64,000 nt of DNA from Anaerohalosphaera lusitana. GTDB taxonomy: Bacteria > Planctomycetota > Phycisphaerae > Sedimentisphaerales > Anaerohalosphaeraceae. The stretch covers positions 3,340,593-3,404,592 of the forward strand of contig NZ_CP019791.1 of assembly GCF_002007645.1 (NCBI RefSeq), written 5' to 3'. The number at the start of each line of letters is the position of its first letter. The stretch's first letter is position 1. Below the pieces are notes generated by a model. That model had not been told where the DNA came from, searched no databases, and saw only the letters and a program-made list of their open reading frames with translations. The position numbers and the translations under genes are program-made. Shown one piece after another: positions 7,347 to 49,043 of this stretch.

Positions 7347-7431
7347 CCGACCCTTATTGGAGCGGATCATGTAATGATTTGGAACGAAGACGGGAACAGG
7401 CCAACTGGTTCGACAAAGGCGTAAGACACTA

Positions 7432-8329
7432 GAAGCTGTTTCAAAACTAACTTCATTTTAAACTTGCGCTATTAAACGACTTATGTAAACTTTGCTGTAA
7501 AACGGAAATGTTTTTTCAGCAAAGGATTTGCCGATGGTCACGGATGACAATGGAAAAAGATTGAGCCGTTGCTGCCGAAGCACAAACAGTCGCCCAAAGG
7601 CGGACGCAAGCCGCGTAGCAACCGGGAAGTTTTCGAAGGCATTTGCTGGGTCCTTCGAAGCGGGGCCAGGTGGAAGGACCTGCCCGACAGGTACCCCTCA
7701 GCGAGCACCTGCTGGCGTAGATTGCAGCAGTGGGAAGAGCAGGGAGTGTGGCTCAAAATGTGGCGTAAGTTCTTGTCAGAGCTGGACGAACAGGGCCAGC
7801 TCGAATGGGAAGAGACCTTCGCCGACGGCTGTTTCGCCTCGGCAAAAAAAGGGGGCCACAGATTGGAAAAACCAAACGCGGAAAGGGTACGAAGTGGATG
7901 GTGGTGGTCGATGGCCAGGGAGTCCCTCTCGGTGCTCACCTCGATTCGGCCTCGCCTAGTGAGATAAAGCTGCTGGAGCCGACTATCGAAAAGATTGCTG
8001 TGCCGCGAAGAGGCCGCGGGCGTCCGCGAAAAAATCCGACTCGCATCGTTGCTGACAAGGGCTACGACAGCGACCCGCTCCGTGAGAGACTGGCCAGACG
8101 CAACATTGAATTGATTTGCCCGTACCGGAAAAACAACAAGCAGAAGAAATATCATGATGGCCGAAAAATGCGGCGTTATAAGCGTAGATGGACGGTTGAG
8201 CGGACTTTTGCCTGGCTGGGCAACTTCCGCCGACTGGTCGTTCGGTATGAAAGAGAGATTAAAATGTATCAGGCGTTTTTTCATATCGCATGCTTGATTA
8301 TTACGCTAAGGCAGTTTTGAAATGGCTTC
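7432..8329 (+). mobile_element. IS5-family insertion sequence (IS427-like), 898 bp
   Basis: Terminal inverted repeats match at 16 of 20 positions: GAAGCTGTTTCAAAACTAAC at 7432-7451 and, reversed, GAAGCCATTTCAAAACTGCC at 8310-8329. A TA dinucleotide flanks both sides (7430-7431 and 8330-8331), the usual target duplication of this subgroup. One transposase gene in two overlapping frames fills the element. It interrupts a short reading frame. Confidence 0.9.
7534..8320 (+). CDS. IS5-family (IS427-like) transposase, frame broken in two places
   Basis: Together the frames give a DDE transposase with LPKHKQSPKGGRKP, SGARWKDLPDRYP, FADGCFASAKK, the IS427 signature GKTKRGKGTKWMVVVDG, VADKGYDSD and RRWTVERTFAWL. 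Frame one runs to 7967 and frame two from 7805 to 8320. The switch is a -1 shift at a run of seven A followed by G near 7845-7852, a classic slippery site that this subgroup uses on purpose. A second break lies near 7549: the ATG at 7534 gives MVTDD, and restoring one base would continue as QWKKIEPLLP. That looks like a true deletion, unless translation starts at TTG 7569. The element may therefore be inactive. Confidence 0.85.
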
Positions 8330-8539
8330 TATTCAGAAAACAACTGCTTGGCGGTTTTGAAGAAATCCACAAGACTCAAAACTGTAAATAAGGCTGCCTA
8401 TGAATGTGGATTTTGCTAGCTCTTTTTTTAGGATATATGACTGGCCAACGTATAATAAGACTTAGGGATCTAATCGTTTTTAAAAGAGTAACAAGTCACA
8501 TTAACCCAGATACCGCCTTCCTTTTTCACTATTAATAGA

Positions 8540-9836
8540 GGGTTCCTCTAAAAATCAGTTAGATTCGTGCAATTTATTGCCCTTTTGTTATAATTAGCTC
8601 ATTGACAATTACATTACGGTTATTCGACTCATAATCAAAGGATTGATCATGATGCAAGTAGGACTTTTCGACTGGCAGACTCGTTTTGAACAACTCGACA
8701 ACAGCGGCGACCCACTTGTCAAGCTTAATGAAATAGTCGACTGGGAGCAATTTCGCAAAACCCTTGAGATTGTCAGAGATAAAAAACGAAAGTCCAACGC
8801 AGGCAGAAAACCCTTTGATGTTATACTCATGTTCAAGATATTGATACTTGATTCCCTGTACAATATATCCGACGATCAGCTCGAATTTCAGATAAGGGAT
8901 CGTATTTCCTTCATGCGTTTTCTCGGTCTGGGTATTGGCGACAGAGTGCCTGATGCAAAGACCATATGGCTTTTCAGAGAACAGCTCACCGAAGCCGGCC
9001 TTGTCGAAAACCTTTTTACTCAGTTCGACGAGTTTCTGCGTAAAAACGGCTTTTCTGCCAAAAAAGGCCAGATCGTGGATGCCAGTATTGTAGCGGTTCC
9101 AAAGCAGCGTAACACCAGAGATGAGAATAAATCCATCAAGAACGGCGAGGTTCCCGAAAACTGGAGCGATACCAAGAAACGCCAGAAAGACACCGATGCA
9201 CGCTGGGTGCAGAAGAACGGCGTAAACTACTATGGCTATAAGAACCATATTGATATTGATGTTAAGCACAAGTTTATTCGCAGCTGTGAAGTAACGCCTG
9301 CCTCTGTTCATGACAGCAATGTCTTTGAAGACTTGCTTGATGCAAACAACAGCAGCAAGGATGTATGGGCCGATTCTGCCTACGGCTCGACGGAAAAACG
9401 GGATAACATTAAAGAAGAAGGCTACCGCGGCCATATTCAACGAAAAGGCTGTCGTTATAAAAAACTGACTCAGCGTCAGATAGAAGCTAATTATAAACGT
9501 TCGAAAACTCGCAGCCGAGTTGAGCATGTCTTCGGCATACAGAAGATGCGGGCGGGCAACTTGATCATTCGAACTATAGGAATAGCCAGGGCCAAGACGA
9601 AAATTTGTATGCGAAACCTTGCGTATAATATAGACAGATACTGCCTGCTGGCTCGACTTTAGCCGCCAACGGTGCGGCACTACGGCCGCAAAGCCAGTCG
9701 GTGCCGCTTGACGCCAGTACTGAATGCCGTCATATTGAGACAAATAATCGTAATTGTGCAACAGTGAGTTCAATTTTAACTCAAAATATTGTTAATTTAA
9801 TACGTGAGCCGCTAATCTTGATTTTTAGAGGTGGCC
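8540..9836 (+). mobile_element. Complete IS5-type insertion sequence, 1297 bp, TAGA target duplication
   Basis: The ends are GGGTTCCTCTAAAAATCA at 8540-8557 and, reversed, GGCCACCTCTAAAAATCA at 9819-9836, identical over the inner 13 bases. TAGA occurs immediately outside both ends (8536-8539 and 9837-9840). A single intact transposase gene occupies the middle. The ends closely resemble those of the small fold-back elements at 46152 and 48528. Confidence 0.9.
8649..9662 (+). CDS. IS5-type DDE transposase, intact
   Basis: A 337-residue transposase. The N-terminal region (MMQVGLFDWQTRFEQL) and AGRKPFDVILMFKILIL are typical of IS5-group enzymes. DDE-type landmarks are GQIVDASIV (first Asp), VWADSAYGS (second Asp) and SRVEHVFG (Glu). 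The ATG at 8649 has AAAGGA six bases before it; a TTG at 8643 is in frame but less likely. Nothing in the frame suggests damage, so the element may still move. It lies in the same direction as the glycan operon around it. Confidence 0.92.
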   Translation: MMQVGLFDWQTRFEQLDNSGDPLVKLNEIVDWEQFRKTLEIVRDKKRKSNAGRKPFDVILMFKILILDSLYNISDDQLEFQIRDRISFMRFLGLGIGDRVPDAKTIWLFREQLTEAGLVENLFTQFDEFLRKNGFSAKKGQIVDASIVAVPKQRNTRDENKSIKNGEVPENWSDTKKRQKDTDARWVQKNGVNYYGYKNHIDIDVKHKFIRSCEVTPASVHDSNVFEDLLDANNSSKDVWADSAYGSTEKRDNIKEEGYRGHIQRKGCRYKKLTQRQIEANYKRSKTRSRVEHVFGIQKMRAGNLIIRTIGIARAKTKICMRNLAYNIDRYCLLARL

Positions 9837-46129: not shown

Positions 46130-46151
46130 CGGTACCTTCCAAAAAAATAAA

Positions 46152-46204
46152 GGGGAGCTCTAATAATTGCTTTTGAGCGGCAAAATGAATTGTTAGAGGT
46201 GCCC
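46152..46204. mobile_element. 53-bp fold-back mini-element with TAAA duplication
   Basis: The unit starts GGGGAGCTCTAATAATT and ends (reversed) GGGCACCTCTAACAATT. Both are nearly identical to the ends of the 162-bp element at 48528. TAAA flanks it on both sides (46148-46151 and 46205-46208). It equals the longer element with about 109 interior bases missing. It lies between two glycan genes on the minus strand. Confidence 0.8.
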
Positions 46205-46227
46205 TAAAGCGTTGCCCCCTCTCCCGA

Positions 46228-47187
46228 TCATCCCATGATCTTCTCTATAGTATAGATCCTGCGGCCCTGCGATTCATGATATGTTCGCACAAGTATTTCC
46301 GCCAAAAGTCCCATAAGCAAAAACTGGAACGAAGTTATTATCAGCATCGCCGTCAGCAGCAGCAGCGGATTGCGGTTCATCGAAAGATGGTCCGGCGAAA
46401 TGAATTTCTGCCACAATACCGTAAAGAACGACAGCATCGCAGCTACACCGGACAAACCGCCAATACCGCCAAAAACATAAATTGGCTTAGTCGAAAACGA
46501 CGCCAAAAACTTGACCGTGATCAAATCCAGAACAACCTTAAATGTCCTGTTCAAGCCGTACTTGGCTACGCCAGTAGTCCTCGGCCTATGATTTACGACC
46601 ATTTCCTCAACGCGTTCACCGCCCCAGCTCGCCAGAGCCGGAATAAAACGATGCATCTCGCCGTAAAGACGTATTTCCTTGATCGAATCCCACCGGTATG
46701 CCTTCATGGTGCATCCATAATCATGCAATGACACACCCGTTATCTTCGAGATCATCCAGTTCGCAACTCGAGAAGGTAAAACCCTGCTCAGCCACTTATC
46801 CTGCCTGTCCTTTCGCCATCCGCTGACTATGTCATACCCTTCGTCCAGCTTATCCACCAGTTTCGGGATGTCAGCAGGGTCATTCTGCCCGTCGGCGTCA
46901 AGTGGTACTACTACCCTGCCCCGGCAATGTTCAAAACCAGCCGCCATCGCCGCCGTCTGACCGAAATTTCTGCGGAATTTTATGATCCGAACCCGTTCAT
47001 CGCCCTCGCGTAAGGATTGCAGGACCTCGAGGCTCTTATCAGTACTGCCGTCATCGATAAATATTACTTCATAGCCGTCTCTGTCCCTCAAGGCTGAGGT
47101 GATCTCATCGTATAACGGACGAAGACTTTCCTCTTCATTGAAAACAGGTATGACAAGTGACAGTTCAAGGGCAGCAGAATTTTCCAT
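46228..47187 (-). CDS. GtrB/DPM1-like undecaprenyl-phosphate glycosyltransferase
   Basis: The 319-residue protein resembles dolichol-phosphate mannose synthase: LSLVIPVFNEEESLRPLYDE, the site VIFIDDGSTDKSLEVL, and the DxD-type PLDADGQNDPADIPKL. Two hydrophobic segments near the C-terminus (about 240-265 and 275-305) match the bacterial GtrB type. It would move a sugar onto undecaprenyl phosphate at the cytoplasmic face, supplying the lipid-linked donor needed by GT39-type enzymes such as the one at 44009. The pairing of the two is the best clue to function. Confidence 0.9.
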   Translation of the reverse strand: MENSAALELSLVIPVFNEEESLRPLYDEITSALRDRDGYEVIFIDDGSTDKSLEVLQSLREGDERVRIIKFRRNFGQTAAMAAGFEHCRGRVVVPLDADGQNDPADIPKLVDKLDEGYDIVSGWRKDRQDKWLSRVLPSRVANWMISKITGVSLHDYGCTMKAYRWDSIKEIRLYGEMHRFIPALASWGGERVEEMVVNHRPRTTGVAKYGLNRTFKVVLDLITVKFLASFSTKPIYVFGGIGGLSGVAAMLSFFTVLWQKFISPDHLSMNRNPLLLLTAMLIITSFQFLLMGLLAEILVRTYHESQGRRIYTIEKIMG

Positions 47188-47282
47188 AATATGCTCCTGA
47201 AAAGGGACTTACATTTGGCGGCGATTCTAAACCGATTCAAATCCTATGTAAAGTCCTATCTAAACGTCGCCGAAAAAGGTTA

Positions 47283-47311
47283 TTGATAATAAGAATTTGC
47301 TTTGCTAAATT
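47283..47311 (+). promoter_or_regulatory. Promoter of the DUF1573 lipoprotein gene
   Basis: TTGATA (47283-47288) and TAAATT (47306-47311) separated by 17 bases, 56 bases before the ATG. The ribosome site is GAGAGG seven bases before the start. Confidence 0.55.
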
Positions 47312-47367
47312 ATGTATCGGCAATCAACGCTCATAAATAATTCCATTTGACTATTTGAGAGGTAAAA

Positions 47368-48471
47368 ATGAGGACATCTCACGTTTTGTCATTAGTAATT
47401 GTCGCCCTGCTCATCCCCGCCATCGTTGGATGCCAGGAACCTCAGGCAGCGAAATCCACCACAGTAGAAACCCAATCCCAGCAGCAGATCGTCTCACCGG
47501 ACCAGGCTGATCAGACACAAACCGACGCCCCCGCGACCGGAGATACAGCCTCAGCCGAAAAAAAGGACGCCCCCAACGTTACAGTTGAGGATAACGAGCA
47601 CAATTTCGGGATCGTCGGCCCCGGAACCGTCCACAAAACAGAATTCGAATTTAAGAATACCGGCTCCAAACCTCTCAAGGTCATTGACATTAAAAGCACC
47701 TGCAGTTGTACCGTACCCGCATTGAAGAAGAAAACATATGAGCCGGGTGAATCGGGTAAGTTTTCGGTCACTTACACTGCCTCGGAACATGAAGGCACAG
47801 ACAAAAAGCACCTCTACATCCTCAGCAATGACCCTGATGAACCAAGAAAACAGGTCACGATCCAGGCAAAGATCGAACTCGACATAGAGTACGGTCCACA
47901 GCGGATGAACCTCTCGCTCAAAGAAGATAACGCCGGCATCCCCAATATCACCCTGAAAAGCAAGGACGGCGAGAAATTCGCAGTAAAAAGCTTCAGCACC
48001 GTAAGGGACGTCATTACAGCGAACCTGGACCCGGACAAAAAGGCCTCGGAATTCACGATCAAGCCCAAAGTAAACCTGGAAAAACTGTCCAAAAACCTCA
48101 CCGGCTCCATAACTTTGACGCTCGACCACCCAACGACCAAACGCCTGAGAATATTCTACACCACTCAGCCGCTCTTCGAGGTCACTCCCGCCCGCATCAT
48201 CTTCCAGAATGCCCAGCGCGGCGAGACCATGAAACGCACAATCCTTATCAAGAGCAATTATGCCGAAAACCTCAAAGTCGAATCGGTCGAATCACGCGAC
48301 GGCCAGATCGAAGTCGTAAACCGCAAATCACTCGGCGACCGGGCTCAGCTCGAAGTTGAGTTCACCGCACCCGAGGACAACAAGGGCAGATTCTTCTCAG
48401 ATAAACTGACCATCAATCTTGAAAATGGCGAAAAACTTGAAATAAATGCCAGCGGCTGGATCAAAAAATAA
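47368..48471 (+). CDS. DUF1573-domain lipoprotein
   Basis: The 367-residue protein has a lipoprotein signal: hydrophobic stretch and lipobox IVGC with Cys22. A Gln/Thr/Ala-rich linker (about 25-65) leads to a DUF1573 domain (about 68-170), an immunoglobulin-like fold with HNFGIVGPGTVHKTEFEFKN and the conserved CSC near 120, then further sandwich repeats to the end. DUF1573 proteins are frequent in Planctomycetota and Bacteroidota; their job is unknown. It has its own promoter and terminator and so is a single transcription unit. Confidence 0.88.
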   Translation: MRTSHVLSLVIVALLIPAIVGCQEPQAAKSTTVETQSQQQIVSPDQADQTQTDAPATGDTASAEKKDAPNVTVEDNEHNFGIVGPGTVHKTEFEFKNTGSKPLKVIDIKSTCSCTVPALKKKTYEPGESGKFSVTYTASEHEGTDKKHLYILSNDPDEPRKQVTIQAKIELDIEYGPQRMNLSLKEDNAGIPNITLKSKDGEKFAVKSFSTVRDVITANLDPDKKASEFTIKPKVNLEKLSKNLTGSITLTLDHPTTKRLRIFYTTQPLFEVTPARIIFQNAQRGETMKRTILIKSNYAENLKVESVESRDGQIEVVNRKSLGDRAQLEVEFTAPEDNKGRFFSDKLTINLENGEKLEINASGWIKK

Positions 48472-48483
48472 CCCGATCACATC

Positions 48484-48525
48484 AAAAAGGGGCAAGTTTA
48501 AACACAACAGACTTGTCCCTTTTTT
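48484..48525 (+). terminator. Intrinsic terminator after the DUF1573 gene
   Basis: A 14-pair stem AAAAAGGGGCAAGT (48484-48497) with ACTTGTCCCTTTTT (48511-48524), one G-T pair only, a 13-base loop, and a run of six T. It lies 13 bases after the stop codon. Confidence 0.9.
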
Positions 48526-48527
48526 AT

Positions 48528-48689
48528 GGGTAGCTCTAATAATTGCTTTTGAGCGGCAAGTAGAAGATTTTCGCGTTCCGGCAAGGAAGACAAAAACCGC
48601 TTTAGTTGTAGCTAAAGCGGTTTTTGTCTGACGCCGTTCGGAACCAAAAAGATTCGCTTGTCCGCCAAAATGAATTGTTAGAGGTGCCC
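48528..48689. mobile_element. 162-bp fold-back element with TTAT duplication
   Basis: The whole unit is an imperfect palindrome of two 78-base arms around a 6-base loop (TTGTAG). The outer 17 bases of the arms match at 14 positions. The innermost 18 bases match exactly (AGACAAAAACCGCTTTAG and its complement). TTAT flanks it on both sides (48524-48527 and 48690-48693). The insertion point is the T-run of the terminator above. It carries no gene and its ends resemble those of the IS at 8540. Confidence 0.85.
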
Positions 48690-49043
48690 TTATGCATTTT
48701 TGTCCATCTTTCACCCATGATTGCCCCGTTTTGCTCACTTTTGGACCATTTTCGAAGCACTTCTGAAACGGCTTCTGAGCATAAATTTCGAACTTTTGCT
48801 CCACGCCCGCTGTACAACACCCGGGCATAACCCGAAAAATGCGATATTTTTGCATTTTCTCCCAGCCAAACGGGAACAAATACTGTTTTTCAATGTCAAA
48901 TTAAACACAACAACACTGCCCGTAGCAACACGGACATACGCAGCTTGTGCAGATGCAATACTGCCGACACGAATTAGCGTTAAGTTTCGTGAATAATTGT
49001 GGACGGTAAAGTTAAGTTACTACTGCTCGGATTCCGATATCTC
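48690..49043. other. Intergenic stretch, no gene seen
   Basis: The 354 bases between the fold-back element and the palindrome before gspC hold no reading frame with coding character. A 160-codon minus-strand frame crossing the element and a 91-codon plus-strand frame have no recognisable motifs and contradict the element boundaries. I see no clear promoter. Confidence 0.6.

Follow-up and report, generated by a model that had tools for sequence, protein, structure and literature searches.

Hairpin units and insertion sequences in the window

The window, i.e. the whole stretch of 64 000 nucleotides that was analysed, carries two gene-less hairpin units and two insertion sequences (ISs). The larger unit, recognized by its sequence, its fold and its copies in the genome, is a full hairpin element with type A ends at positions 48528–48689 on the + strand, with a length of 162 bp (the family norm is 161 bp). 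It is bounded by TTAT target duplications at 48524–48527 and 48690–48693, seen in the sequence and in the flank test. The left end, GGGTAGCTCTAATAATT, lies at 48528–48544 (+ strand) and was assigned by end comparison; the right end, GGGCACCTCTAACAATT as read on the minus strand, lies at 48673–48689 and matches the ends of an IS lineage at 13–16 of 17 positions. A conserved covarying core of 88–89 nt, defined by alignment and by the covariance model R1, spans 48566–48654 (+ strand), and the core alignment places the two strands of a conserved internal loop within it, GGCAAGGAAG at 48580–48589 and CTGACGCCG at 48628–48636 (both + strand). A predicted gene ends 56 bp to the left of the unit, and the nearest predicted gene start on the right is 364 bp away.

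The smaller unit, identified by sequence and fold, covers 53 bp at 46152–46204 (+ strand), carries TAAA duplications at 46148–46151 and 46205–46208, and is flanked by two co-directional minus-strand genes. An earlier sequence-only reading had described both units as fold-back elements and the smaller as the larger without its centre, and both descriptions hold with exact coordinates. The end-to-end fold of the 162-nt unit is −85.7 kcal/mol compared with −40.7 ± 3.7 kcal/mol for shuffles (z = −12.1), the 53-bp unit folds with z = −4.7, and the latter equals the former minus 109 central bases, with one substitution. The exact 4-base duplications reported for the two units and for the IS at 8540 (TTAT, TAAA and TAGA, respectively) are also present in the sequence. 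The palindrome itself stands, but the proposed two equal 78-base arms and 6-base loop are refined to imperfect arms with 64 of 76 aligned bases paired and a predicted apical loop of 4 nt. Among the copies, the one at 48528 is unusual as the sole 162-bp member, the remaining copies being 160–161 bp. In its left arm, AAAAACCG replaces AAATCAG, so that this stretch is exactly complementary to the right arm. This patch of one insertion and two substitutions accounts for the unique length and, judged by the two arms, is a textbook quasi-palindrome correction.

The first IS, at 8540–9836 (+ strand) with TAGA duplications, was assigned from its sequence, domains and ends to the IS5 family and to the lineage of the candidate type A mobilizer. 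The transposase was predicted to be intact, and the open reading frame at 8646–9662 (+ strand) indeed encodes 338 residues with DDE_Tnp_1 (PF01609) and DUF772 domains, matching NCBIfam IS5_4 (NF033581) with 279 bits against a cut-off of 140. Four full-length copies of this transposase with 99–100% protein identity are found in the genome, along with two truncated copies in a head-to-tail array. The array lies at genome positions 2326282–2331097 (L030–L033) with a period of 952 bp, and the left end of the next copy cuts two transposases after residue 288. The second IS, at 7432–8329 (+ strand), was identified by its ends and domain; it is of the NF033580 IS5_3 type, has a split frame and is flanked by TA duplications (7430–7431 and 8330–8331). 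Its ends resemble those of type B hairpins of other genomes.

Copies, short forms and the conserved core

The genome of Anaerohalosphaera lusitana (order Sedimentisphaerales) is a single contig of 4.25 Mb, in which copies were collected by sequence search. A gene-less palindromic family with further copies had been anticipated, and the whole-genome search with the 162-bp unit yielded 25 near-full copies with 88–100% identity to the 48528 unit, besides the 53-bp copy and a solo end at 111188. Exact 4-bp duplications flank 15 of the 26 bounded copies and 7 more differ by one base, compared with a mean of 3.2 and a maximum of 12 exact duplications when the flanks were re-paired (2000 trials). Chance is therefore excluded by the number and identity of the near-full copies together with the excess of exact duplications. 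The target sites are AT-rich, mostly T[TA][AT]A. Since the copies differ from their consensus by 1–14 bases, the expansion is not very recent. Of the 26 copies, all but two are located outside predicted genes. Their orientation is unbiased with respect to neighbouring genes (five same and seven opposite among co-directional genes), and hairpin sites between genes are divergent in seven cases versus convergent in one. No arc-related orientation bias was seen either; neither a replication origin nor a terminus stood out clearly in the sampled GC skew. The family thus has the properties of MITEs: short elements (161–162 bp) without coding capacity, in many copies including short forms, with terminal inverted repeats, target duplications and ends in common with autonomous elements. 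For type A this end match is 13–16 of 17 bases, and for type B the left 17 bases are identical to those of an IS in another genome (G026).

A size ladder, which had been guessed from the two units in the window, is borne out. Hairpins of 36 bp (L134), 53 bp (the window and L422), 70 bp (L159), 82 bp (L423), 161 bp and 172 bp (L160) were found, and longer forms of 248–344 bp contain inserts. The deletion junctions vary. Two short forms have short direct repeats at their junctions, CAA in the 53-bp copy, whose junction falls within this microhomology, and GGCAAG in L423, a pattern that deletion across a hairpin would leave; the 36–82 bp forms would then be slippage deletions. The 53-bp form L422 is from another genus and its junction is identical to that of the window copy. 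Some related elements have altered interiors. L144:2944–3020 (77 bp, with an exact ATAA duplication) and L146:1825–1926 (102 bp) combine A-like ends with a different interior. In L149:1017–1360 a type A hairpin is interrupted at its centre by an MITE-like insert of ~180 bp with ends like GCGCATRAATAA, and in the A-type elements L087 and L269, from two host families, a small extra hairpin (TCCCGAT..ATCGGGA) replaces part of the left arm. We considered insertions inside hairpins (L149, L152 and L145–L148) as built-in empty sites; these hold other inserts and are not counted as proof.

With the central 65 bases as the query, the core is detected in four families of the order (22 of 161 genomes). 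A gapless alignment of 88 columns was made from 31 distinct cores found by DNA similarity (27 A-type and four B-type), and it describes a simple three-helix hairpin. In this alignment 95.0% of the cells are paired compared with 86.7% in shuffles, two-sided changes occur at 14 of 28 pairs compared with 8.0 in shuffles, and none of 500 shuffles reaches these values on any measure. When the partner is shifted by one column, pairing falls to 56–60%. The covariance model R1, built from this alignment and with rough E-values, matches 38 of 397 sampled genomes of the class and, outside the class, a single genome of another class among 392 genomes of the phylum. As the comparison genomes are mostly metagenome assemblies, absence or co-occurrence in these counts is weak evidence, and some presences are possibly contamination. 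In 74 aligned R1 matches, two-sided changes occur at 26 of 28 pairs, with 335 such cells versus 94 in shuffles, although this class-level alignment was fitted to R1 and its pair counts lean towards the model. The most conserved part is the mismatched internal loop GGCAAGGAAG / CTGACGC, which is invariant across the class. The interior is the conserved part of the element.

The fold differs between the strands, where the + strand is defined as the one reading GGCAAGG. The + strand folds better than the − strand in 40 of 40 non-redundant type A sequences (means −67.3 and −51.4) and in all 14 representatives of types A–F. One-sided departures from Watson–Crick pairing comprise 47 G·U and five A·C cells, a non-independent count at the genome-consensus level. 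For pairs predicted on both strands only, the numbers are 12 and five distinct events (p = 0.14), and the private mutations of copies in the window's genome show no clear G·U preference (18 versus 12).

Exchanged ends and candidate mobilizers

The same core is found with different ends, and the core-bearing elements measure 158–163 bp regardless of the end kind, some copies having extra inserts. Type A ends, GGGNANCTCTAANAATT, are associated with a 4-bp duplication, and type B ends, (A)GAAGTCATCCCAAAACC, with a TA duplication. Type C, AGGCTCTGTCTGAAAAGT, probably has a TA duplication that is sometimes inexact, and type D, AGAGTCTCTAACAAAATGA, has one of 3 bp (TTA or TAA). Types E, AGAGCATTGAAAAGTTGAC, and F, AGAGCAACGAAAGA, both have TA duplications, and a further end kind occurs in the genome G779. 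The duplication length thus takes values of 4, 3 and 2 bp across the end kinds. Types E and F have 14 of 20 terminal bases in common and may be one kind; we therefore count at least six end kinds, including that of G779. Both types are so strongly diverged that their outer arms may be convergent. In G779, which belongs to another planctomycete class, at least 11 near-identical cores are present (L401–L421 and L426–L431), many of them at contig ends.

Types A, B and C match each other at only 4–8 of their 20 terminal bases, which is near chance, whereas their interiors are 61–72% and their centres 60–89% identical. The closest case is within one host family, where the type B element of G150 and one type A element of G152 have centres that are 98% identical; compared with another type A copy of G152, the terminal bases match at 4 and 8 of 20. 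In two genomes (G007 and G192) two end kinds surround the core within the same genome. The conservation of the middle together with several exchanges of the ends suggests that the middle, and not the ends, is what matters.

For type B an autonomous partner can be named: IS copies in G026 are identical to the B hairpins over 17 bases at the left end, are flanked by TA duplications and encode a transposase of the NCBIfam IS5_3 family. We rejected L325 of G093 as an autonomous type B IS, as it proved to be an rmuC-like gene flanked by a small B element on either side. Core-less mini B-type elements are also seen in L326 and L328 (56 bp), L314 and L315 (77 bp) and L325:205–280 (76 bp).

For type A the evidence concerns the lineage of the 8540 IS. 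The two 17-base ends of this IS match the hairpin right end GGGCACCTCTAACAATT at 13 and 14 positions, the same counts as first noted. Relatives of this IS with 63–76% identity occur in three other genera of the host family, and their ends (e.g. GGGAACCTCTAACAATT and GGGCACCTCTAAAAATT) match the same hairpin end at 14–16 of 17 positions. Exact 4-bp duplications flank two of three relative IS loci (ATAA and ATAT); TAGA, TTAA, ATAA and ATAT are recorded for the lineage as a whole, and the duplication length is 4 bp in both the hairpins and the 8540 IS. The hairpins are therefore linked to this lineage by their ends and their duplication length, which support their assignment as its probable MITEs. 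The transposase lineage is present in four of 39 host-family genomes and A-type hairpins in 16 of 39, many of these genomes being incomplete MAGs, and the two are clearly together only in the genome of the window. In view of this difference in distribution, the 8540 IS is only a candidate for the present mobilizer, with a slightly less than even prospect. Another transposase of the genome (L034, 34% identical) was considered as a partner and set aside, as it is without similar ends. The interior could be thought a deletion product of the 8540 IS, which we reject, since the related IS loci L094–L096 have no R1 match at any of the three and the whole-unit search of the genome gave no interior match at the IS copies. 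The initial view of the units as parasites of the 8540 IS is thus retained for their IS-lineage ends and 4-bp duplications. It does not hold for the interior, which is conserved and also travels with other, unrelated ends; a description of the elements as parasites of a single IS is therefore too narrow.

Mechanism, alternatives and related elements

We consider it probable that the family is a mobile, gene-less hairpin of ~160 bp that is mobilized in trans by IS5-family transposases, has repeatedly exchanged its ends and needs its fold for propagation. An IS5-family transposase would bind the terminal ~17 bp in trans and move the DNA by ordinary DDE transposition. Full-length pairing would keep the element inverted-repeated, so that a new end pair for another IS5-type transposase could be acquired, as appears to have happened repeatedly. 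Candidate routes for this exchange are recombination between nested or neighbouring elements and template switching inside the hairpin. The folded + strand, as RNA or single-stranded DNA, would be required for efficient propagation, and for this reason the source lineages would keep the fold while old copies drift. Selection would thus act on the fold in lineages that are still propagating rather than on each inserted copy. A bolder version, which we hold tentatively and at somewhat below even chances, is that an independently selected single-strand interior (RNA or ssDNA) drives the spread in trans and repeatedly takes the ends of different IS5-subgroup transposases, so that the passenger defines the family.

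Several alternatives bear on parts of this reading. The IS at 8540–9836 might itself have made both window units and now move them, a proposal that falls a little short of an even bet: it shares the 4-bp AT-rich duplications and 13–14 of 17 end bases with the hairpins, and the presence of four transposase copies, all intact and nearly identical, points to recent activity. However, the hairpins look older than the IS copies (1–14 differences from the consensus, and imperfect duplications at 11 of 26), closer ends exist in other genera, and the hairpins are distributed widely among genomes that lack this IS. It is also conceivable, though unlikely, that these are ordinary IS5 MITEs of one IS in which pairing persists through arm-to-arm template switching (quasi-palindrome correction) and the fold is unselected. 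The 48528 copy shows such a correction, and an MITE built from two IS ends would be palindromic from birth; however, correction would also remove mismatched loops, and the loop GGCAAGGAAG / CTGACGC is kept across the class. That G·U is commoner than A·C, that the interior is conserved across unrelated ends and that the related ISs at L094–L096 have no interior counterpart further argue against an unselected fold.

The strand specificity of the fold is compatible with two other roles. The fold could act as single-stranded DNA, for instance during excision or when exposed in the lagging strand, in the manner of IS200/IS605 elements and integron attC sites, with the IS5-like ends being secondary. 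Strand-specific stability and the conserved mismatched loop would be in keeping with a protein that recognizes single-stranded DNA in its folded form, yet duplications of 4, 3 or 2 bp and terminal repeats typify DDE transposition and are not made by single-strand transposases, and the arc-related orientation bias was not seen, with a replication origin that could not be located from the GC skew; we regard this role as rather improbable. An IS200/IS605-type or RAYT/REP hairpin was rejected as an identity for the element in view of its inverted terminal repeats and target duplications. Least likely in our assessment is a host-serving cis-regulatory RNA (a terminator, mRNA stabilizer or RNase III site) that is dispersed as a mobile element and retained at every site of insertion. 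The intergenic position of 24 of 26 copies and the strong fold on one strand agree with it, and such functions have been proposed for the ERIC and NEMIS repeats (PMC2229807). It is opposed by the lack of bias relative to co-directional genes, by the seven divergent sites against one convergent and by the private mutations, which lack a clear G·U preference. An intrinsic terminator was rejected in particular: no terminator-like site is called in either unit, and the T run is paired inside the stem.

What usually defines an MITE is a pair of ends taken from a single IS, with an arbitrary sequence between them. The hairpins differ from the MITE descriptions found in the open literature in that the interior defines the family. 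The norm is reversed: throughout a class of Planctomycetota the interior keeps its fold, and the ends and the duplication length change. The family makes it testable how a non-autonomous element switches its transposase partner, and whether a non-autonomous bacterial element is selected for a folded nucleic acid that aids its propagation. In animals, CORE-SINEs combine a conserved central part with varying partner-derived tails and are retroposons moved via RNA by LINEs. The likeness is an analogy only and not homology, but if the interior is indeed selected, the hairpins would represent, among bacterial DNA transposons, the equivalent of SINEs with a conserved core.

Of the elements with IS5-like ends whose movement has been proven, MITEPsy1 of Pseudomonas syringae comes closest to the hairpins. 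It is 100 nt long with IS5-like 18-nt terminal repeats that probably come from ISPsy2, makes 4-nt duplications (CTAG or YTAA) and has been shown to transpose (PMC3189936). The hairpins share with it the small size, the lack of genes, the IS5-like ends and the 4-nt duplications. Unlike the hairpins, MITEPsy1 has one IS partner and a restricted distribution, and the available part of the report describes neither a covarying interior nor an exchange of ends (PMC3189936). The ERIC/IRU and Correia/NEMIS repeats resemble the hairpins in size (100–200 bp), terminal repeats, duplications, an RNA-like stem from end to end and many intergenic copies; they differ in their sequence and hosts and in having a single end kind each, and the review reports no IS with matching ends (PMC2229807). 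RUP of Streptococcus pneumoniae has ends that match a resident IS (IS630-Spn1), from which mobilization in trans was inferred; it differs in belonging to the IS630 family with a TA target, and the review does not describe a covarying core with other ends (PMC2229807).

In Rfam, no family scores above the gathering threshold for the hairpin and only sub-threshold chance matches are obtained; the 161-bp consensus is without a match in plasmid and phage collections. The four pattern matches in viral contigs and those in other phyla have no matching hairpin and were taken as chance. The hairpins thus add a well-supported structural family absent from Rfam, and the conserved internal loop offers a handle for seeking a binding partner. 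The loop permits tandem G·A pairs, but extra bases separate these from the outer stem, and a kink-turn is not claimed. A more distant core (TCAAGGCGGAGG ... CGCCGACAACGC), missed by R1, is seen in B-type elements of three genomes (L316–L324, L335 and L336 in G091–G093), and this core may keep the internal loop.
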